NCBI GenBank assembly: GCA_949299935.1
Contig: CASGCE010000014.1
Span: forward strand, 1 to 64,000
DNA from: an uncultured bacterium
GTDB lineage: Bacteria > Cyanobacteriota > Vampirovibrionia > Gastranaerophilales > Gastranaerophilaceae
Length of the DNA: 64,000 nt
Direction of reading: 5' to 3'
In this document: positions 12,426-32,350 of the stretch, one piece after another
How the letters are laid out: each line of letters starts with the position of its first letter
Position numbering within the stretch: position 1 is the first letter of the stretch
Notes under the pieces: generated by a model
What the model was told of the DNA's origin: nothing
The model's input: only the letters and a program-made list of their open reading frames with translations
Database searches by the model: none
Translations under genes and position numbers: made by a program

Positions 12426-12443
12426 AATTCCAAGGAGGTTTGA

Positions 12444-13297
12444 ATGTTATATTTGAGAAGCTGTAACGGGGGGGGGCGACTCCTCTAAGCCAATGTAGTC
12501 GTTGGATCAGACTAATCAGCTACCGGTCTGAATTAACAAATGGTCGTAAGAAAAGCAGAAACGGTTTTACATTAGCGGAAGTTTTAATAACATTATCGGT
12601 CATCGGTATAGTTGCGGCGTTGACGATACCGAATTTGATAACAAAATATCAAAAAAAACAGACGGTATCAGGTCTGAGGGAAGCATATTCGATTTTGAGT
12701 AATGCGGCAAGGTTATCAGAAGCGGAAAACGGTCCTATGTCGACATGGGATTATCCTAAAATTTCAGGGACTGAATTGATGGGAGTTTTTATAGAAAAAT
12801 ATTATCTGCCCTATTTGCGTTCTGCAAAATTAATGACTCGCTCTGAATTTAAGAGTATGTATCCTAAGTATAGTGTTAAGAATTTATCGGGAACCGGTGA
12901 AGGGCACATGATTTATCACCAAGTGGTAATTCTTTCAAATGGTATGATATTATTTTTTAATGACGTGTATTATGGAACATCAAACTATCTGTGGATTTAT
13001 GCAGACATAAATGGTCTTGCCGGTCCAAATAGAATCGGCCATGATATATTTGTATTTGATGGTTCATCTTGGGGAAAAAGGGGTAATACGTACGTCAATT
13101 TTTGGTCACACTATACTTGTGCTACAAGAGCATGCTATATGGCTTCAGGTCCCGAAGAAGGTACTTCTGAGGCTGAAAGTAACCGCGGCTACTACGGATG
13201 TTCAAAGGATAACAAATATGGATATTATGCAGGTTATTACTGTGGTGCGCTAATAAGATATGACGGGTGGAAAATCGCTGATGATTACCCTTGGTAG
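12444..13297 (+). CDS. Prepilin-like protein 1, frame broken at a G9 tract
   Basis: A type IV pilin-like (pseudopilin) protein. AAGGAGG and ATG 12444 begin a short frame, MLYLRSCN, that runs through nine G (12468-12476) and stops at TAA 12486-12488. The prepilin frame is open from the G tract to 13297 but lies one frame away, with no ATG, GTG or TTG before the TTG at 12620 inside the hydrophobic helix. A -1 frameshift in the run, or a tract of 7 or 10 G, would fuse the two. The fused protein reads GGATPLS, a basic stretch of about 35 residues, then NG/FTLAEVLITL with prepilin peptidase Gly(-1), Phe(+1) and Glu(+5). The C-terminal domain has INGLAGPNRIGHDIF and ends DGWKIADDYPW, matching the 15143 gene. 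Either off, frameshifted or affected by a homopolymer error. Confidence 0.72.
12468..12501 (+). promoter_or_regulatory. G9-CGACTCCTCTAAG element of prepilin gene 1
   Basis: Nine G (12468-12476) followed by the 13-base block shared with the copies at 15051 and 19693. CGACT (12477-12481) can pair with AGTCG (12497-12501), placing a hairpin directly after the slippery run. Confidence 0.75.
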
Positions 13298-13339
13298 TAT
13301 GTATTTTTAAGTTAGGATAAAGGTAAACATTTGTTTTTA

Positions 13340-13348
13340 TGTTAATAT
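13340..13348 (+). promoter_or_regulatory. Extended -10 promoter of the SulP gene, leaderless
   Basis: TGT-TAATAT (13340-13348), six bases before ATG 13355. There is no Shine-Dalgarno sequence and no good -35 box. Confidence 0.6.
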
Positions 13349-13354
13349 TTACTT

Positions 13355-14974
13355 ATGTTTTTAAATCTAAAAGCAAAATTCGGAATATTTATAGGGGATG
13401 TTTTTGGTGGAATTAATTCAGCCATAATTGCGCTTCCGCAAGCGTTGGCATTTGGAGTTGCGACGGGATTTGGAGCGGGGGCAGGGTTGTGGGGTGCAAT
13501 AATTTTATGTTTTGTTGCCGGAATTTTGGGTACAAAAACTCCTATGATATCAGGTATTACAGGGCCTGTAGCTATTGTTACCGCATCAATCATGCATGCT
13601 ATGGGGCAGGATATTAATTCTGTTGTTCTAATAATTGCTCTTGCCGCCATATTTCAGATAATACTTTCCATGACGCAGTTGTTGAATATTGTTAAATATG
13701 TACCATATCCGGTTATATCAGGCTTTATGAACGGTGTGGGGATTATTATCATTATACTTCAGATTAATCCTTTAATAGGGCATGCTGCGCTTTCCTCTAC
13801 TATTGAAAGCATTCAGAAACTTTTTATTAACCTGGGTGCAATAAATTTTGATGCTTTAATTTTAGGTGTCACAACTTTGTTAATTGTATTTTTAATGCCC
13901 AAAAAAATCAACAAACTCATTCCATCCACCGTTGCAGCGCTTGTTATTTGTACTTTCATTTCTATAAAATTTGGTTTCAATGTGGATAAAATTGAAGTTA
14001 TTTCTATCGATTTTCCGAAATTAATATTACCAAAAGCAAGCTTCTTACAGATAGTTAACAATTTACAATATGCGATTACTCTTGCGGTAATATTGTCGTC
14101 AGAAAGTTTATTAACAGGTTTAGTTTGTGATTCTTTAACCAAGATTAGAAATAATCCGAGACATCTTATAGCTGCGCAGGGAATTGGTAATTTAGTATGT
14201 TCAATGGCGGGTGCTTTACCCGGTGCTGCTGCAACAATGCGAACAGTTGCAGCGTTAAAGGCAGGTGCTAAAACTAAAATGGCGACTGTTGTCAGTCCGC
14301 TTATTTTGCTTATACTTTTGTTTAAATTGTCCGGATTTGTTGCGGAAATTCCTTTACCTGTGCTTGCTGGTATCCTTATCAAAATCGGATACGACATTAT
14401 TGATATTAAATTGTTAAAGGTAATTAAATATGCACCAAAAGACGATTTATACGTTCTATTGGTTGTTTTCTTCTTAACGGTATTTTATAACCTGATAGTT
14501 GCTGTTGGTGCGGGGATTGTTTTGGCGGCGCTTTTGTATGCTAAGAGAACTGCTGACAAAGTTAAACTGGTTCAAAAGCCGATTTACGACGCTGAGATTA
14601 TTGCGCTGGAGAAAATTTTAGAGCATGATTATCATCATAAAATTCGTATTGTTCATATTGACGGACAATTTTTCTTTGGCTCAGCTACACAGCTTATTGC
14701 CCAATTTGATGAACTTTTGGGAACAAGATATCTTATACTTAATTATGATGCAAATGATTTATTGGATATATCTGCAATTTTCGCTTTTGAAGATATTGTA
14801 TTAAGGTTAAAAAGTCAGCATATAAAAATTCTTCTTGTAATCCATGACAGAAAGCTTTATGAACAACTGGAAAAGCATTTAATTATTAAAGAAATCGGTG
14901 AGCATCACATATTTTATTCTGAGATAGATGCGATTAATTTCGCAAAAAATTCGTTGAAAAAAAAATATAAATAA
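13355..14974 (+). CDS. SulP-family anion transporter with STAS domain
   Basis: A 539-residue inner-membrane carrier of the SLC26/SulP family. Residues 1-400 are hydrophobic and contain about a dozen membrane segments. GGINSAIIALPQALAFGVATG (about 19-39) is the family's conserved first helix region. Further conserved pieces are SGITGPVAIVTAS and SMAGALPGAAATMRTVAALKAGAKT. Residues about 435-530 form a cytoplasmic STAS domain (VHIDGQFFFGSATQLIAQF). Substrates in the family include sulfate, bicarbonate and dicarboxylates; the sequence alone does not decide. The start follows a -10 box by six bases. It lies between two prepilin genes without an obvious link to them. Confidence 0.92.
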   Translation: MFLNLKAKFGIFIGDVFGGINSAIIALPQALAFGVATGFGAGAGLWGAIILCFVAGILGTKTPMISGITGPVAIVTASIMHAMGQDINSVVLIIALAAIFQIILSMTQLLNIVKYVPYPVISGFMNGVGIIIIILQINPLIGHAALSSTIESIQKLFINLGAINFDALILGVTTLLIVFLMPKKINKLIPSTVAALVICTFISIKFGFNVDKIEVISIDFPKLILPKASFLQIVNNLQYAITLAVILSSESLLTGLVCDSLTKIRNNPRHLIAAQGIGNLVCSMAGALPGAAATMRTVAALKAGAKTKMATVVSPLILLILLFKLSGFVAEIPLPVLAGILIKIGYDIIDIKLLKVIKYAPKDDLYVLLVVFFLTVFYNLIVAVGAGIVLAALLYAKRTADKVKLVQKPIYDAEIIALEKILEHDYHHKIRIVHIDGQFFFGSATQLIAQFDELLGTRYLILNYDANDLLDISAIFAFEDIVLRLKSQHIKILLVIHDRKLYEQLEKHLIIKEIGEHHIFYSEIDAINFAKNSLKKKYK

Positions 14975-15003
14975 TTGACATGCTCTGTAAAACTATTTAT
15001 AAT
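14975..15003 (+). promoter_or_regulatory. Consensus sigma70 promoter of the second G-tract prepilin gene
   Basis: TTGACA (14975-14980), a 17-base spacer and TATAAT (14998-15003), a perfect consensus. The transcript would begin near 15010, immediately before GGAGG (15013-15017). Confidence 0.88.
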
Positions 15004-15050
15004 ACATTATATGGAGGTTACGTAGAAGGTGCGCGAGCAGTGAGGTTCTC

Positions 15051-15119
15051 GGGGGGGGGCGACTCCTCTAAGTAAATATAACAAGGGTTTTAAACAATTT
15101 GGCAAGGTCGCTTACTTAG
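15051..15119 (+). promoter_or_regulatory. G9-CGACTCCTCTAAG element of prepilin gene 2
   Basis: Nine G (15051-15059) and the conserved block. GCGAC (15059-15063) is complementary to GTCGC (15107-15111). CTAAGTAA (15068-15075) is complementary to TTACTTAG (15112-15119). The two pairings interlock, so they are either alternatives or a pseudoknot-like fold. Confidence 0.7.
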
Positions 15120-15142
15120 AAATATTTGCCAGCATAATTCGG

Positions 15143-15898
15143 TTGAAGAATAATTCTTACACGGTAACATCTAATCAAAGAGCATTTACGCTTGCTGAAA
15201 TACTTATAACATTGGGAATAGTTGGTGTTGTGGCTGCTTTGACCATTCCGACTTTGATTTTAAAATATCAAAAGCGTGAGTATGCTGCAAGGCTTTCCCA
15301 GACTTATAGTGTGTTATCAAATGCTGTTAAACTTTCGCAGTCAGATTATGGAGATATTTCGACGTGGGATTACAATACAAATAAAAATCTAGAAGGTAAT
15401 ACTAGTGTAATGCGTGATATTGTAAGCGCTTATACAGAAAAATATTTTTTGCCTCATTTAAGAGTATCCAAAAACTACGGTTATGTAGCTCTGTCGAGTG
15501 CGGGCTACCCGAAGTACAAAACAAAAGGTGGTGTAGTGTACTTGGCTGCTGCCTCAAATGGTTATATTGTAGAATTGTCAAGTGGAGTAACTCTGTTTTT
15601 CTGGTACAATTACACTTACGTTGATGGTGCTTCAAGTATTTTAAGATTTACGGAACCGCTTATTTTTGTTGATGTAAACGGCAAAGCAGGGCCAAATGTT
15701 GTAGGAAGAGATTTTTATGTATTCATCCTTTCAACTTCAAAAAATTGTCTGATAACTTATGGGGACTACTTTGAGTATTTTTCGCGTACTCAGTTTATTG
15801 AACAATGCGGCAGTACTACGAGTAATACTGCTAATTTATATTGTGCTGGATTAATCAAACTTGATGGCTGGAAAATTAAGGATGATTATCCCTGGTAA
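15143..15898 (+). CDS. Prepilin-like protein 2
   Basis: A 251-residue pseudopilin from TTG 15143. The prepilin peptidase site is QRA/FTLAEILITL with Ala at -1 and Glu at +5, followed by the helix GIVGVVAALTIPTL. The globular part has VDVNGKAGPNVVGRDFYVF and ends LDGWKIKDDYPW, homologous to the 12444 gene. TTG 15143 has no good ribosome-binding site. The frame is open upstream through ATPLSKYNKGF back to the G9 tract at 15051, as in the other two copies. GGAGG at 15013 and GTG 15040 are the nearest plausible initiation signals. GTG 15040 is one base out of frame with the prepilin and would fit with eight G. ATG 15011 stops after four codons. The real N-terminus is therefore uncertain; the coding body is secure. 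Confidence 0.8.
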   Translation: MKNNSYTVTSNQRAFTLAEILITLGIVGVVAALTIPTLILKYQKREYAARLSQTYSVLSNAVKLSQSDYGDISTWDYNTNKNLEGNTSVMRDIVSAYTEKYFLPHLRVSKNYGYVALSSAGYPKYKTKGGVVYLAAASNGYIVELSSGVTLFFWYNYTYVDGASSILRFTEPLIFVDVNGKAGPNVVGRDFYVFILSTSKNCLITYGDYFEYFSRTQFIEQCGSTTSNTANLYCAGLIKLDGWKIKDDYPW

Positions 15899-15915
15899 AA
15901 GTGATCCTGTTTTTT

Positions 15916-18174
15916 TTACAAAAAATTATATTCGGGTATATTAAACTTTTCATTATTAGCATCTTTTTGCACAAATTTCAGATAATATTGCATTGCTTTT
16001 TCTTTTGTGTTGTCGTAGAATTCTTGAGAAATATACTTTTTGTGTAATTCAGTTCTTTCACCTGAATAGTTCCCCAAGGTTGATGCATATTTTTCAATAT
16101 CAGATTTGTTTAATCCGCCTCCATAGGCTTTGGTTTTGGCATCTGTGCCGGATGGACGAATTTCAATATATTTGTCGTCAAATTCCATGTAAGTGCCATC
16201 ACCTACAAATTTTATTGATTTTAAATTCGAAAAATCAAGCTCTTTGAACGCATCAGATAGTACATTTTTAACATCTTCCAATGATAATTTACCTTCAAGT
16301 ACACCCATTGCAAGTGATAAGTAGAACAAGTCATTTTTTGTCCTTAATTCTTCACCTATGATTTTTGCTTGTTTAAATTTTTCAATGTCAGGTTCAGACT
16401 CATTGTAGTACGCAATATCAACCCGTGTGTCAAAACGTCCGATTATTTTATTTTCGTCAAATACCTTTAATAGATATTGAGAGAGTGTAATATTTTCTTT
16501 CTCAAGTTTTGCAACAAGAGCGGAGGCCACAATAATAGCTTCTGTAGCGCTTTTTTCTCTCATTGCTATTGCAAATCTTCCGTGCATAGATTTTATCAAA
16601 TCTTCCGTTCCCATTATCATTCCGCCGGATTCTTCACCGCCGAATAACAATCTGGGATTTTTGCCTAAGTCAATACTGTTACCGAAAACATCATCGAGCG
16701 CAACATTTTTTTCGTTGTCGTTTTTTATTTGTAATTCCACTTTCTTCATTATGTTAGCTATTTCTTTAAAACCGACCGGAACATTGACAACTTTTACTCC
16801 GTTATTTTTTGCCCACTCGTCCCACGATAATGCTGAGGCTGTTGTTTTTATAACAAATCTCGGGTGATTATTCCATAGATTTTGAGCTTTTAATTGTTTT
16901 GACCAAAAATCCATAAGCATTAAAAACGCCTGATTAGCTGTAAATATAGTTAAAATTGTTGAATCATTTAATTTGATGTAATCTATTCCGGCCTTATTAA
17001 GTTCTTCAATGCGTGAAATGCTTTCTTTTTGGGTTATTGTAAGCCTGTCGTGATCCGGATCTGTAATTAGTACAACGGTATTTAAAGGCATGTTTTTTAA
17101 TTTTTTGTTATAGTGCATTGTATCTATAACAGGGAAAAATTTTGTTCCGTCAGGTTTTTGGGCAATTACTGTAGCGTCAACGGAATAATCATAAAAAGCC
17201 TTTTCTCCTTTCGGTGTAGTGTCGTATTTTCCTATTGAATGAAAAAACGGATCTTCTTTAGTGTTAAACCAAACATATTTATCCGAAATTCCAAGCTTTT
17301 TTAGTACTCTGCTGAGTGTCCTGTACGCTGAACCCCCAACATTTTCAATTACTATTTTATCACCAATTTGCTTAATTAATTCTAAATTAATTTCTTGTGC
17401 AACACCGGATTTCAGATATTCTACGTATAAATCGACCCCGTCATTGAAACTTGCCATCACTTTTTCGTCAATCAGTTGGTTGTTCAACCCGGAGATCCTT
17501 ATTTCATAGGTGCCGTTTTTATTTGTTTTTTCAAAAATTTCTCTTATTTTGTCTACAAATTCCATTGATTCCTCGGGTAAATATTGACTGCCTTGAGAAT
17601 TTAAGTCCTTAGTGGCATTTTTTACTGAAATTCCGTGACTGGAGGTGATATATTCCCCGCCTAATAAATCAAGCTTAAAGGCCAAAAATGATGCAAGCCA
17701 TATTGGAATTGTTTTTTTGCCGAGTGGTACAAGTGTTCTTATACCCTGTGCGGCTTGGATTCTGGCTATTGCTTCTAAATATAAGTCTGAGTTGTAGCGC
17801 ACTTCTCTGCCAGCAATTTTAACTATTTTTTTGTCAGGGTATTTTTCTTTGGCGACAAGTGCTTTTGCCAAAGTTGCAAGCACCAACCCGACAAGATTTA
17901 TTGGAAAACGTGTGTCTTGCGGATATGCTATATTCTGCGGTCCCCTAATCCCCGCTGTGGATACCTTTGCTTCTTTGGCATAATTTTCCAGCCATTCCTC
18001 TAAGTTAAGTCCTTCCGGGTTGTTAATTTTATCATATGGTTTCAAATGCTCTTTTTTTAACGTGAAAATAAATTCACCTTTGTTGCTGAGCTTAATTATA
18101 GTATTTTTCTTTATATGTTCGGGTGTATTTTCCTTAACACTTTTAAATAATTTTCTTTCCAGATTGTTTTTCAT
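15916..18174 (-). CDS. Phosphoglucomutase/phosphomannomutase-superfamily phosphohexomutase
   Basis: A 752-residue enzyme with four alpha-D-phosphohexomutase domains in order. ITSSHGISVKNATKD contains the phosphoserine loop, TSSHG replacing the commoner T-SHNP. ITDPDHDRLT is the Mg-binding loop. GGEESGGMI is the sugar-binding loop. EIRPSGTDAKTKAYGGG is the phosphate-binding loop. It interconverts 1- and 6-phosphates of a hexose, supplying nucleotide sugars. It is longer than the 450-580 residues usual for the superfamily because of inserts. The open frame reaches 18276, but ATG 18174 is preceded by AAGGAGAG and begins MKNNLERKLF, so I start there. It converges on prepilin gene 2. Exact sugar specificity cannot be read. 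Confidence 0.88.
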   Translation of the reverse strand: MKNNLERKLFKSVKENTPEHIKKNTIIKLSNKGEFIFTLKKEHLKPYDKINNPEGLNLEEWLENYAKEAKVSTAGIRGPQNIAYPQDTRFPINLVGLVLATLAKALVAKEKYPDKKIVKIAGREVRYNSDLYLEAIARIQAAQGIRTLVPLGKKTIPIWLASFLAFKLDLLGGEYITSSHGISVKNATKDLNSQGSQYLPEESMEFVDKIREIFEKTNKNGTYEIRISGLNNQLIDEKVMASFNDGVDLYVEYLKSGVAQEINLELIKQIGDKIVIENVGGSAYRTLSRVLKKLGISDKYVWFNTKEDPFFHSIGKYDTTPKGEKAFYDYSVDATVIAQKPDGTKFFPVIDTMHYNKKLKNMPLNTVVLITDPDHDRLTITQKESISRIEELNKAGIDYIKLNDSTILTIFTANQAFLMLMDFWSKQLKAQNLWNNHPRFVIKTTASALSWDEWAKNNGVKVVNVPVGFKEIANIMKKVELQIKNDNEKNVALDDVFGNSIDLGKNPRLLFGGEESGGMIMGTEDLIKSMHGRFAIAMREKSATEAIIVASALVAKLEKENITLSQYLLKVFDENKIIGRFDTRVDIAYYNESEPDIEKFKQAKIIGEELRTKNDLFYLSLAMGVLEGKLSLEDVKNVLSDAFKELDFSNLKSIKFVGDGTYMEFDDKYIEIRPSGTDAKTKAYGGGLNKSDIEKYASTLGNYSGERTELHKKYISQEFYDNTKEKAMQYYLKFVQKDANNEKFNIPEYNFL

Positions 18175-18227
18175 TGTTTTTTGCTCTCCTTGCTTAATTA
18201 TACTATAAAAAATCCGTTGATGTCTAT

Positions 18228-18256
18228 TTGCTAAAATTACTATTTTTATGTATAAT
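18228..18256 (+). promoter_or_regulatory. Sigma70 promoter of the acyltransferase pair
   Basis: TTGCTA (18228-18233), 17 bases, TATAAT (18251-18256). It is followed by GGGAG and ATG 18275. Confidence 0.72.
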
Positions 18257-18274
18257 CTTGTAGGGAGTTGAGCC

Positions 18275-18946
18275 ATGGTTTTGACTAATAAAAAGAGAAA
18301 AAAAGAACGCCGAAGTTATTGTAAAAGAGAAGCATCAGAATATAATTTTTTCAGAAAAATGTTTCTTTTTCTCGTAACTAAAATAGGGTATATGATAAGG
18401 TTTAAAATTGTTTACCGTTTGAAAGTGTACGGCAAGAAAAATATACCTAAAGACAATAACTACATTGTTGCAGCAAATCATCTTTCAACTTTGGATCCGC
18501 CGCTGGTGGCAGCCATTATGCCAAGATCGGTGTGCTTTATGGCGAAACAGGAATTGTTTAATATAAAATTTTTGCGATGGTGGCTTGATTGGCTCGGTGC
18601 TTTTGCCGTAAATAGAGAACACTTAGGTGCTTCCACAATTAAAACGGCTAAGTCTATTAAACAGACAGATTGGGTACTCGGACTTTTCCCGCAAGGTACT
18701 CGATGCGAGCCAGGTGAGATTAAAGATATTAATAAAGGCTTTGCAAGCCTTGCTAAAGTTACAAAATGCGGTATATTGCCTGTTGGAATTATTGGTACGA
18801 ATGAAGTTAAACGTATACCGTTTACCGGTAAGATTGTCGTTAAAATAGGCAATGTTATTCCCTATAATGACAATTTGGATTTGGTGGTGGAGCAATGGGT
18901 TAAAGCAATTGAAGAATTGACCGGCTTTAAGTATGTTCAAAATTAG
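18275..18946 (+). CDS. PlsC-like 1-acylglycerol-3-phosphate acyltransferase (copy 1)
   Basis: A 223-residue membrane-associated acyltransferase. NHLSTLDP (68-75) is the catalytic HX4D block I. FPQGTR (138-143) is block III. GILPVGIIGT is block IV. The N-terminal 25 residues are strongly basic, followed by a hydrophobic segment (about 29-45) that probably sits on the inner membrane. The enzyme should acylate lysophosphatidic acid or a related glycerolipid. A GGGAG site precedes ATG. It is 10 bases before a second, diverged acyltransferase, indicating tandem duplication. Confidence 0.9.
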   Translation: MVLTNKKRKKERRSYCKREASEYNFFRKMFLFLVTKIGYMIRFKIVYRLKVYGKKNIPKDNNYIVAANHLSTLDPPLVAAIMPRSVCFMAKQELFNIKFLRWWLDWLGAFAVNREHLGASTIKTAKSIKQTDWVLGLFPQGTRCEPGEIKDINKGFASLAKVTKCGILPVGIIGTNEVKRIPFTGKIVVKIGNVIPYNDNLDLVVEQWVKAIEELTGFKYVQN

Positions 18947-18956
18947 GAGTTAAGAT

Positions 18957-19649
18957 ATGAAGGCTAGAAATTACAATAGAAGATATGCAAAAGAATACAA
19001 TTGGTTTCGTTCACTGTTTTATTTGACATTCCTTGTGGTAGTTGTTGACAATTTTTTACGTATATTTTATGATTTTAAAGTTTATGGTCGTGAGAATTTA
19101 CCCAAAGACAACGGTAAATACATATATGCCGGAAACCACGTATCTATTTTTGATCCTCCGATTGTTTCTTTTGCTACCAGAAAACTCATTGCATTCATGG
19201 CTAAAGAGGAATTATTTGATTCAAAGGAAAAACTTCAGTGGCTTGTAAAACGTCTCGGAGCTTTTGCTGTTAACAGAACTAAGCCTGAAATAGCTACTTT
19301 TAAAACGGTACGTGATATTTTTACAACTAAATGGTCTTTGGGAGTTTTTCCTCAAGGTGGTACAAATCCATATGGTAAGCTCGAAGGTATTAAAAAGGGG
19401 TTTGCTGTTATTGCTAAAACTGCTAAAGCTGATATTGTCCCCGTTGCTATTGCCGAGTTTGATGGTTATCCGAAATTGAAACCTTTTACCAGACGTAAGT
19501 TTAGAATTTATATCGGCAAACCAATATCTTATAAACTGTCCGAAGACGAAATAATTTATGAATGGTGTAAATATATTTCAGAGCATGCCGACTATGAAAA
19601 TTGTGTAAAATTACCGGAAGCTGTAACCAACAACAAAGTATTGGCTTAG
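18957..19649 (+). CDS. PlsC-like acyltransferase (copy 2)
   Basis: A 230-residue paralogue of the preceding gene. It shares KEYNWFRSLFYL-type N-terminal residues, a hydrophobic segment (about 20-38), NHVSIFDPP (catalytic His61 and Asp66), LGAFAVNR, FPQGGT in place of FPQGTR, and IVPVAI. The loss of the block III Arg (GGT instead of GTR) is notable, because that residue helps bind the acceptor phosphate; activity or acceptor may differ. The ribosome-binding site is AGGAG in the 10-base gap. It is followed after 19 bases by the third G-tract prepilin, which has no promoter of its own and so is probably in the same transcript. Confidence 0.88.
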   Translation: MKARNYNRRYAKEYNWFRSLFYLTFLVVVVDNFLRIFYDFKVYGRENLPKDNGKYIYAGNHVSIFDPPIVSFATRKLIAFMAKEELFDSKEKLQWLVKRLGAFAVNRTKPEIATFKTVRDIFTTKWSLGVFPQGGTNPYGKLEGIKKGFAVIAKTAKADIVPVAIAEFDGYPKLKPFTRRKFRIYIGKPISYKLSEDEIIYEWCKYISEHADYENCVKLPEAVTNNKVLA

Positions 19650-19668
19650 GATTGAAAGGAGTGTATTT

Positions 19669-20591
19669 ATGTACATAGCACAGACAGAAAACGGGGGGGG
19701 GCGACTCCTCTAAGCAGGTTTAGTAAGGTTTTAGAGAGTGTATGCGTTTGTAGGTACTATCTTTTTTTAGTGCTAAGAATATTTAAAAGTTTATTACGTC
19801 CGGTTCTTAAACAAATTAATTGTTACAATAATAATTTTTCAAAAAAGTTCGCATTTACTTTGTCAGAAGTTTTAATAACTCTTGGTATCATTGGTATTGT
19901 TGCAGCTGTTACCATACCACCACTTGTTTCTAACTACCGTAAAAATGTCCTAAAAACTCAGTTTATTAAAAAATATGCTGAAATTTCTCAGGCAGTATTA
20001 CTTGCCAAAAGTGAAACAAATGGTAATTTTAAAGAGTATTGTACTCAATATGACGGTACAAGTTTTTTTAATGAAACACAGTGTAAGGCAATTTTTGATA
20101 AATATTTTAAGAAAACCGGTACATGTAAATATAAAGAGGATGTGTTAACCTATGATAAAAAGCTTGCTGCAAGTGTTAATTATGGAGCTGTAACTGCACC
20201 AAAAATTTTACTATCTGATGGAAGCTGCTATGATATATGTGTTAATGCTTATCAACTCGGTTTCACGTTTGATTTTAACTGACCTGATAAAGGTCCTAAT
20301 GCACTCGGACATGATATATTTTCATTCTGGGTGGACGATTATGATTACTTGCAGCCGATAAAACAATCAACGAAATATACAGTTGATGAAATTCAAGAAG
20401 CTATAGAAAATTGTTTGGCGCAAGGAAAACTTAATACGTCATCTTGTCGCGCTATATGGAATCAAAGAGGGTTTCCTTGCACAAGAAATTCTGTACAAAC
20501 AGGTAACGGGCTTGGCTGCAGTTGGTATGCACTACATGATGAATGTCCTGATGAAGATAAAAAAGGTTATTGGTCTTGTTTACCCAATTAA
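19669..20591 (+). pseudogene. Prepilin-like protein 3: G9 frame break plus in-frame TGA
   Basis: AAAGGAG and ATG 19669 open MYIAQTEN, which runs through nine G (19693-19701) and stops at TAA 19711-19713. The prepilin frame is open from the G run (GGATPLSRFSKV) through a hydrophobic/basic leader to KKFA/FTLSEVLITLGIIGIVAAVTIPP. It continues to TGA 20280-20282. The same frame then resumes without loss (PDKGPNALGHDIFSFWVDD) to the stop at 20589-20591. In the sister genes the position of this TGA is a Gly in the pattern D-NG--GPN, so a single GGA-to-TGA change explains it. TGA is a normal stop elsewhere in the window. The tail is Cys-rich (CRAIWNQRGFPC) and lacks the DGWKI-DDYPW end. Possibly still expressed as a truncated pilin by frameshifting from 19669 or starting at GTG 19770. 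Confidence 0.7.
19693..19739 (+). promoter_or_regulatory. G9-CGACTCCTCTAAG element of prepilin gene 3
   Basis: Nine G (19693-19701) and the conserved block. ACT-C-CTCTAA (19704-19713) can pair with TTAGAG-AGT (19731-19739), nine pairs with one bulged C, just after the run. Confidence 0.72.
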
Positions 20592-31182: not shown

Positions 31183-32350
31183 TTAATCTGCCAAACATAT
31201 CGCCAGCGTATTACTACTGTTACGGTTACCAAAGTGGTAATACATAGTATAATTAGGATAAAACCAGCGTACGTATGCATCTGTGCCGCCGGCACCATAT
31301 TCATTGTTTGCCCAAACTATAAAGCCGTCTGAAGATGTGTTAAAAAATCCTAATTCGTCTGCTTTATTCTTGTCCCAATGAGCGGGTGTGGTTCCTATAG
31401 AGTTTACGTTTATCCCGTAAATATATGCTGCAATTGTGGCTAAATTCGCTTGTGTTGGCATTTTAGTTCTTCCACCACAGGCATTTACTGCACCTGCCCA
31501 GTAGTCTGTGTCATAGTTGCATGCTGTTATTCCTAAATCAGTTTTTAAGGCTTCACATTCTGCTTTTGTAATAGGGGCTGGTTTAAAAGGCGCAGTGAAA
31601 CAAGTTCCGTTCCGTTTGAATGCGCATTTGTTGAATTTTGCGTTAATAGATCGGATATCTTTAGGGTATGAATTAGGCGTTTTGAATCCGTTAGTATCAT
31701 ATAGTAATGAGATACATGAGGTGCCTGAAAATTGATTTGTGTAAGGTTGTTCTTTACAATCAGGGTTGTACGCAATTAATCCGGTTGTCCCGTTTACAAA
31801 TTGTACCCCCAGTACCTCGGTACCCCAATTATCTTGACCCATATCAGCTGCATCATGTATATTTGATGTATTAAAAAGTTCGGATTGTGTACCTGTATAA
31901 ATATCGTGTATATTCCAAGTTATGGTATTTTCAAAGCACTTATCTATCTCAGTATTTTTACAGATTTTATGAATTTTAAAATGTTGGGATAATTCATTTA
32001 GAAACCCTGCTGTGTCAGTGTATCCTGCAAGGGTTTGTTGGGTGTTCATTGTCTTTAATGCTTCTTCAAGTCGTCTTTCAAATACCTGTGCGGAAGTGCT
32101 CCAAGCTTTTTCTTGATATTTTGAAACAAGAGTTGGAATAGTAACAGCGGCGACTATTCCGATTATGCCCAGTGTAATCAAAATTTCTGCCATTGTAAAA
32201 CCTTTTTTTACATTTGTTGAAAAAACATAATTGCGCACATTAAAATTATAATCAGATTTAAACAAAATGCCAATTAGACTTTGAGCTAGGTGGCTTAGGA
32301 GGTTCGGGGGGGGCGACTTTCTGAACAGCATTTTTCTCAATTATTTCCAT
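31183..32350 (-). CDS. Prepilin-like protein 4, frame broken at a C8 tract
   Basis: A pseudopilin on the minus strand. AAAGGAG and ATG 32350 start MEIIEKNAVQKVAPPEPPKP, a frame that passes through eight C and stops after 30 codons (32260-32258). The prepilin frame is open from a TTG at 32340 (MRKMLFRKSPPPNLLSHL), offset by one base. Deleting one C, or a +1 ribosomal shift, would join the good start to the prepilin. The prepilin site is VKKG/FTMAEILITLGIIGIVAAVTIPTL with Glu at +5. The 300-residue globular domain is Cys-containing (CKNTEIDKC, CKEQPYTNQFSGTSC), has DTNGFKTPNSYP and ends with a WFYPNYTMYYHFGNRNSSNT segment. This resembles larger minor pseudopilins. Which frame is used in the cell is unknown. 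Confidence 0.78.
32306..32317 (-). promoter_or_regulatory. AGTCG-C8 tract in the leader of prepilin gene 4
   Basis: In the sense strand of prepilin 4 the sequence is AGTCG, then C from 32313 to 32306, then GAACCTCCTAAG. AGTCG plus the C run is the exact reverse complement of the GGGGGGGGCGACT part of the other three prepilin leaders, so the mRNAs could pair over 13 bases. Confidence 0.65.

Follow-up and report, generated by a model that had tools for sequence, protein, structure and literature searches.

The pilC gene of Neisseria is an example of a phase-variable gene that carries a poly-G tract. Neisseria poly-G genes are surface genes switched ON and OFF at the level of translation (reviewed in PMC4235727), and Campylobacter jejuni NCTC11168 has 29 poly-G/C contingency loci (PMC4965091). 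In pilus genes of Bifidobacterium breve, replication slippage in a G tract has been shown to join two open reading frames (ORFs) (PMC9187656). Here we describe prepilin genes with G9 tracts near their 5' ends in a stretch of 64,000 nucleotides (nt; hereafter the window) from an uncultured gut bacterium of the Gastranaerophilaceae, in Gastranaerophilales, a side branch of the cyanobacteria (positions 1 to 64,000, forward strand, of contig CASGCE010000014.1, assembly GCA_949299935.1). Judging from sequence comparisons, these genes are probably phase variable by replication slippage, with OFF as the default state one step from ON, a reading that we favour over programmed -1 frameshifting.

The kind of locus is a known one, that of the poly-G/C contingency loci of Campylobacter, Neisseria and the Bifidobacterium pili. 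The closest precedent is provided by B. breve bbr_0113 and bbr_1889, which encode sortase-dependent pili: the G tract lies in the 5' coding part, and one tract length joins the start ORF to the main ORF. These loci are mostly OFF in culture, and the ON length is enriched in the mouse gut (PMC9187656). In contrast to the two loci in one strain, sortase pili and G10-G12 tracts of B. breve, there are here approximately 50 type-IV-like prepilin genes with G or C tracts of length 9, and we infer slippage from their sequences. C. jejuni is similar in having G/C homopolymers of at least 7 in reading frames, an AT-rich small genome and surface functions, but its tracts are spread over many gene families, whereas nearly all of those described here are on one family with one default-OFF layout. 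C. jejuni is also without mismatch repair (PMC4235727), while MutS-family genes are present in the genome from which the window comes. The Neisseria poly-G genes are accessory or adhesin genes in one or two copies, in contrast to approximately 50 copies of the prepilins themselves. Finally, the Neisseria pilE/pilS system resembles this one in having many pilin copies of which few are expressed; it operates by gene conversion into one expression locus (PMC3547852), whereas each copy described below has its own start signals and tract.

Tract genes of the window

A preliminary description of the window had placed blocks of G9 followed by CGACTCCTCTAAG at 12468, 15051 and 19693, and all three are present at those positions (3 observed in the window, versus a chance expectation of 0.02 for a 17-mer with up to 3 mismatches). 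The associated prepilin genes (genes 1 to 3) all exceed the cut-off for PF07963 (N_methyl, the N-terminal methylation/cleavage motif). The features of these genes, and of a fourth tract gene, are as follows:

12432..12446, plus strand: gene 1 ribosome-binding site (RBS; AAGGAGG, 12432-12438) and start codon (ATG 12444), 24 nt from ATG to tract
12468..12476, plus strand: gene 1 G9 tract
12477..12489, plus strand: gene 1 block CGACTCCTCTAAG, containing the start-frame stop (TAA 12486-12488)
12476..13297, plus strand: gene 1 prepilin frame (ATPLS...), 273 amino acids, PF07963 N_methyl
15051..15072, plus strand: gene 2 G9 tract (15051-15059) and block (15060-15072), no usable start upstream
15059..15898, plus strand: gene 2 prepilin frame, 279 amino acids, PF07963
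19655..19671, plus strand: gene 3 RBS (AAAGGAG) and start codon (ATG 19669), 24 nt from ATG to tract
19693..19714, plus strand: gene 3 G9 tract (19693-19701) and block (19702-19714), with the start-frame stop (TAA 19711-19713)
19701..20591, plus strand: gene 3 prepilin frame, broken by TGA 20280-20282 and open again to 20591, probable pseudogene
32306..32350, minus strand: fourth tract gene, ATG (32350-32348) and C8 tract (32313-32306; G8 on the plus strand), out of frame in the other direction
32140..32211, minus strand: fourth tract gene, N_methyl motif (PF07963)

Genes 1 and 3 have, as had been claimed, a strong RBS and an ATG that drive the wrong frame: from an ATG located 24 nt 5' of the tract, this frame reads N-GGG-R-L-L-stop, ending at the TAA within the block. 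The prepilin is in the -1 class, and one extra G would join the two. Gene 2 does differ from the others in lacking a usable start, but the GTG proposed for it at 15040 is in the third frame and another GTG, at 15029, runs into a TGA at 15041. Two further statements were too broad. The prepilin frame had been described as open in all three genes, but gene 3 contains an in-frame TGA (20280-20282), which probably arose by nonsense mutation in a copy that is seldom expressed; this codon adjoins a conserved GPN..GHDIF motif. Long G runs had been described as otherwise absent from the window, but there is a G8 at 32306-32313; that run is itself the tract of another prepilin gene, the fourth listed above.

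Tract genes in the source genome and its relatives

The source genome (G000; 1.68 Mb, 97% complete) contains 72 PF07963 prepilin matches and 54 G runs of at least 8 on either strand. The earlier suggestion of a switch shared by pilin genes is well supported at this scale: 52 of the 54 runs are located no more than 500 nt upstream of a prepilin motif (approximately 2% expected), and the block does not occur mostly away from coding starts. Read in the coding sense, these 52 tracts comprise 44 G runs and 8 C runs, nearly always of length 9. One other run (L019, C34:50) lies at a contig end, and its leader is of the same type as those of the other tract genes. The sole run of at least 8 with neither a downstream prepilin nor a contig end is L255 (C16:155490), a G8 tgactatatcgtagc. 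One additional copy in this genome, L035, carries G7. In another, L024, the leader is 31 nt long, which places G9 in frame; it also contains a T9 run, and this second homopolymer may itself shift the gene. No match was found in the viral contigs searched for a viral carrier.

Twelve species of the genus carry the block, in 131 G-tract copies, of which 128 have a strong start. The order of RBS, start, leader, tract, block and prepilin is constant in the 131 copies, and the leader sequences are diverse. The tracts are homopolymers, at least approximately 7 bases long, that separate the start codon from the main ORF within the 5' coding region. The start-to-tract distance is mostly 27, 24, 21 or 18 nt and is a multiple of 3 in 123 of the 128 genes with a strong start; the same holds for 65 of 69 leader clusters defined at 70% identity, which are not fully independent of one another. 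Switched ON, the simplest copies would yield M-8 residues-GGG-ATPLSR.SKG^FTLAEV, which is an ordinary prepilin leader. Several copies (such as L082, L087 and L146) lack any start codon between the tract and the cleavage site, so that translation has to pass through the tract. In the C-tract genes, the leaders are unrelated to these (MK.I.TKAVQ.V) and the start-to-tract distance is mostly 37 or 40 nt. Many copies, including L028, L032, L069 and L104, have in-frame inserts between the tract and FTLAEV that resemble translated dispersed repeats (insert peptides include CHPEAKPKDL, VILNLFQDL and ILRYYGTKALR). The inserts lengthen the prepilin leader, to approximately 100 residues in some copies, and the frame stays open.

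Tract length determines whether the start and the main ORF share a frame: G10 and G7 are in frame, while G9 and G8 are not. Among the 128 G-block copies with a strong start, the length is 9 in 103, 10 in 15, 7 in four, 8 in three, 11 in two and 6 in one, and leader length does not compensate in the in-frame G10 copies or the dead G8 and G11 copies. Had ATG and prepilin been in one frame throughout, intact genes with mis-sized tracts would have been indicated, but the two share a frame in 19/128. The C tracts of the genus (n = 30) have length 9 in 21 cases, with three in frame and 23 in the same out-of-frame class as the G9 genes. There is little lineage signal in tract length, as none of 25 copies with a length other than 9 shares the length of its nearest neighbour and the species differ in their share of G9 (38/40 in G000, 5/10 in G002 [p 0.002] and 2/6 in G004 [p 0.001]). 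The nearest-neighbour test replaced a comparison of flank identity with tract difference, which was confounded by species.

Other genera have other usual lengths. In the genus of G022, the tract is G8 in 12 of 15 genes; 11 of these 15 share the class of the G9 genes (ON at 9), and no copy has start and prepilin in one frame. The modal tract of genus g10 (G024) is G13, which is out of frame the opposite way; most G12 copies are in frame, and 5/21 copies are in frame overall. G019 has tract genes of both frame classes. Because G022 and g10 need opposite shifts, the rule common to the genera is not "-1" but that a gene with the usual tract length is OFF, and a single step would turn it ON. With approximately 40 prepilin genes (L274-L281, L313-L342) bearing FTMAEI motifs and G11-G14 tracts, G024 represents an independent expansion of tract-bearing pilins in another genus.

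The number of genes with a start-frame stop codon no more than 21 nt beyond the tract was compared with the number obtained by synonymous codon randomisation. The C tracts have 23/31 such stops (11.2 expected) and the G022 set 13/15 (6.4 expected), both sets having been found without the block; the G-block figure of 72/72 (18.5 expected) is in part a product of the search, for which the block was the query. The corresponding values for the other wrong frame are 8 versus 13.1 for the C tracts, 3 versus 5.4 for G022 and 70 versus 52 for the G block. With start-frame stops beyond expectation, and the other wrong frame showing a smaller excess or none, the OFF state appears both selected and tidy.

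Positions 4-10 of the block after the G run show C/T exchanges and almost never a purine, codon third positions included. In the model, an RNA hairpin forms between this pyrimidine run and the G run, with GCGA as its loop, and C/U changes leave it intact: 99% of cells are paired, by G-C and G-U only and without two-sided changes. The prediction is similar for G019 and several other sets, and weak for G022. The hairpin z-scores at the window sites range from 0.2 to -1.1, no stronger than shuffles, and the hairpin between the two runs does not hold up as DNA. The pyrimidine run perhaps has a role in tract stability or translation. Sequestration of the RBS by the CUCCU run was considered as a selected covarying feature and rejected, the real value being -8.75 kcal/mol versus -8.77 kcal/mol after swapping within species. 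A shared G9-CGACT motif, read on the G strand whether the gene has a G or a C tract, is suggestive in G000 but variable in other species, and we make no claim for it.

G tracts were also observed in two other settings. In genus g15 (G029; L265-L267, L269, L270, L273), another repeat family has many copies that consist of G10 followed by TAAACCGCTCA.ACCAAAGGTTTTGGCG at the ends of short ORFs or RNAs, with no prepilin match using our search pattern. In G032 (L285, L286), G13 runs end a conserved stretch, ggtgatgc.ggcat.gg.aaaa.ggctgaaacccttgtcctgagcggctttt, which is possibly a mobile element or structured RNA.

Probable replication slippage and other explanations

Under phase variation, each of these prepilin genes would carry its tract as a slip switch early in the coding region. 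Ribosomes would begin at an ATG 18-40 nt upstream and read across the G or C run. With a tract of the usual length (9 in this genus), they would enter the wrong frame and stop within a few codons, leaving the gene OFF; replication slippage that adds one base (10) or removes two (7) would place start and prepilin in one frame and turn the gene ON. A leader of the form M-(6-12 residues)-GGG/PPP-...-G^FTLAEV would then be made and would be cleavable by prepilin peptidase. With approximately 50 independent loci that are mostly OFF, each cell would have a small private subset of pilins. Tract lengths would be expected to change within a population and to set prepilin expression, and the benefit may be pilus variety (against phage or the immune system, or for attachment).

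Polymerase slippage accounts for the use of both strands, the mixed lengths, the in-frame minority, the differences between species and the missing lineage signal. Several points weigh against it. Classical contingency loci vary more in tract length than these genes do (exactly 9 in 103/128), and such uniformity is unexpected if slippage is fast. MutS-family genes are present in G000 (two matches) and in all relatives searched; slippage rates may therefore be modest. Lengths of G/C tracts of at least 8 can be wrong in short-read assemblies (PMC4235727), and simple slippage requires neither a conserved start-frame stop nor a pyrimidine-only run.

These last two features would fit programmed recoding, in which the ribosome or RNA polymerase slips at a set rate on a fixed G9 or C9 tract, the -1 shift gives low-level prepilin and the start-frame stop is part of the signal. 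The C-tract, G022 and G-block sets show an excess of stops near the slip site that is smaller or absent in the other frame, and the pyrimidine-only run could pair with the G run. Also consistent with recoding are the length strongly fixed at 9 and the single -1 class seen in the G9 and C9 genes of the genus and in the G8 genes of another. We nevertheless consider it unlikely: the direction of the shift is not conserved (the modal G13 of g10 goes the opposite way, and both classes occur in G019), copies in frame at G10 or dead at G8/G11 are common, with no compensation by leader length, the mechanism would have to act on G and C runs alike, and the hairpin z-scores at the window sites are not significant. 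The more specific proposal, that the nine-base G/C run, start-frame stop and pyrimidine run form a shared recoding signal by which dozens of pilins of the genus are made at a low level from an unchanged template, is in our view a little more doubtful still. The preliminary description had offered phase variation or programmed frameshifting; phase variation fits better in view of the C tracts, the in-frame G10 and G7 copies and the opposite shift in g10, and we favour it because the shift direction differs by genus, both strands are used and lengths are scattered.

With approximately 50 related copies, nearly all OFF and with homologous 5' parts in common, the genes might instead serve mainly as gene-conversion donors to a few expressed pilins, as in Neisseria pilS/pilE, with the tract maintaining silence. 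This is very unlikely, as the copies are not silent for want of their own start signals: 128/131 G-block copies have a strong RBS and start. It is highly improbable that the tract and upstream start are irrelevant and that the prepilin begins at an internal downstream codon. Many copies do have a canonical short leader with a Met (MKNYSSRKG^FTLAEV), but several have no start codon between tract and cleavage site, and an internal start gives no reason for start-to-tract distances in multiples of 3. We give equally little credence to an assembly error that conceals intact genes whose tracts really all have length 10 (or 7). Illumina assemblies do mis-size G/C runs of at least 8 (PMC4235727), but the same 9 is found in assemblies with contig names of differing type (idba, NODE, k127), other genera yield 8 or 13, and the start-frame stops are in excess.

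Novelty and implications

Our literature search found no paper linking Gastranaerophilales with phase variation and, in the broader literature, nothing on this motif. No earlier description appears to exist for a set of this scale in a single gene family, for the default-OFF layout or for the lineage. On genomes such as this one, gene callers would cut or drop approximately 50 pilin genes. If phase variation is the correct reading, these genes would be among the largest sets of slip switches on one gene family, in a poorly cultured animal-gut lineage. A modal length that is OFF and one step from ON could provide a simple rule by which leader length sets the share of ON cells, and the arrangement suggests that pilus identity would be picked at random, cell by cell.
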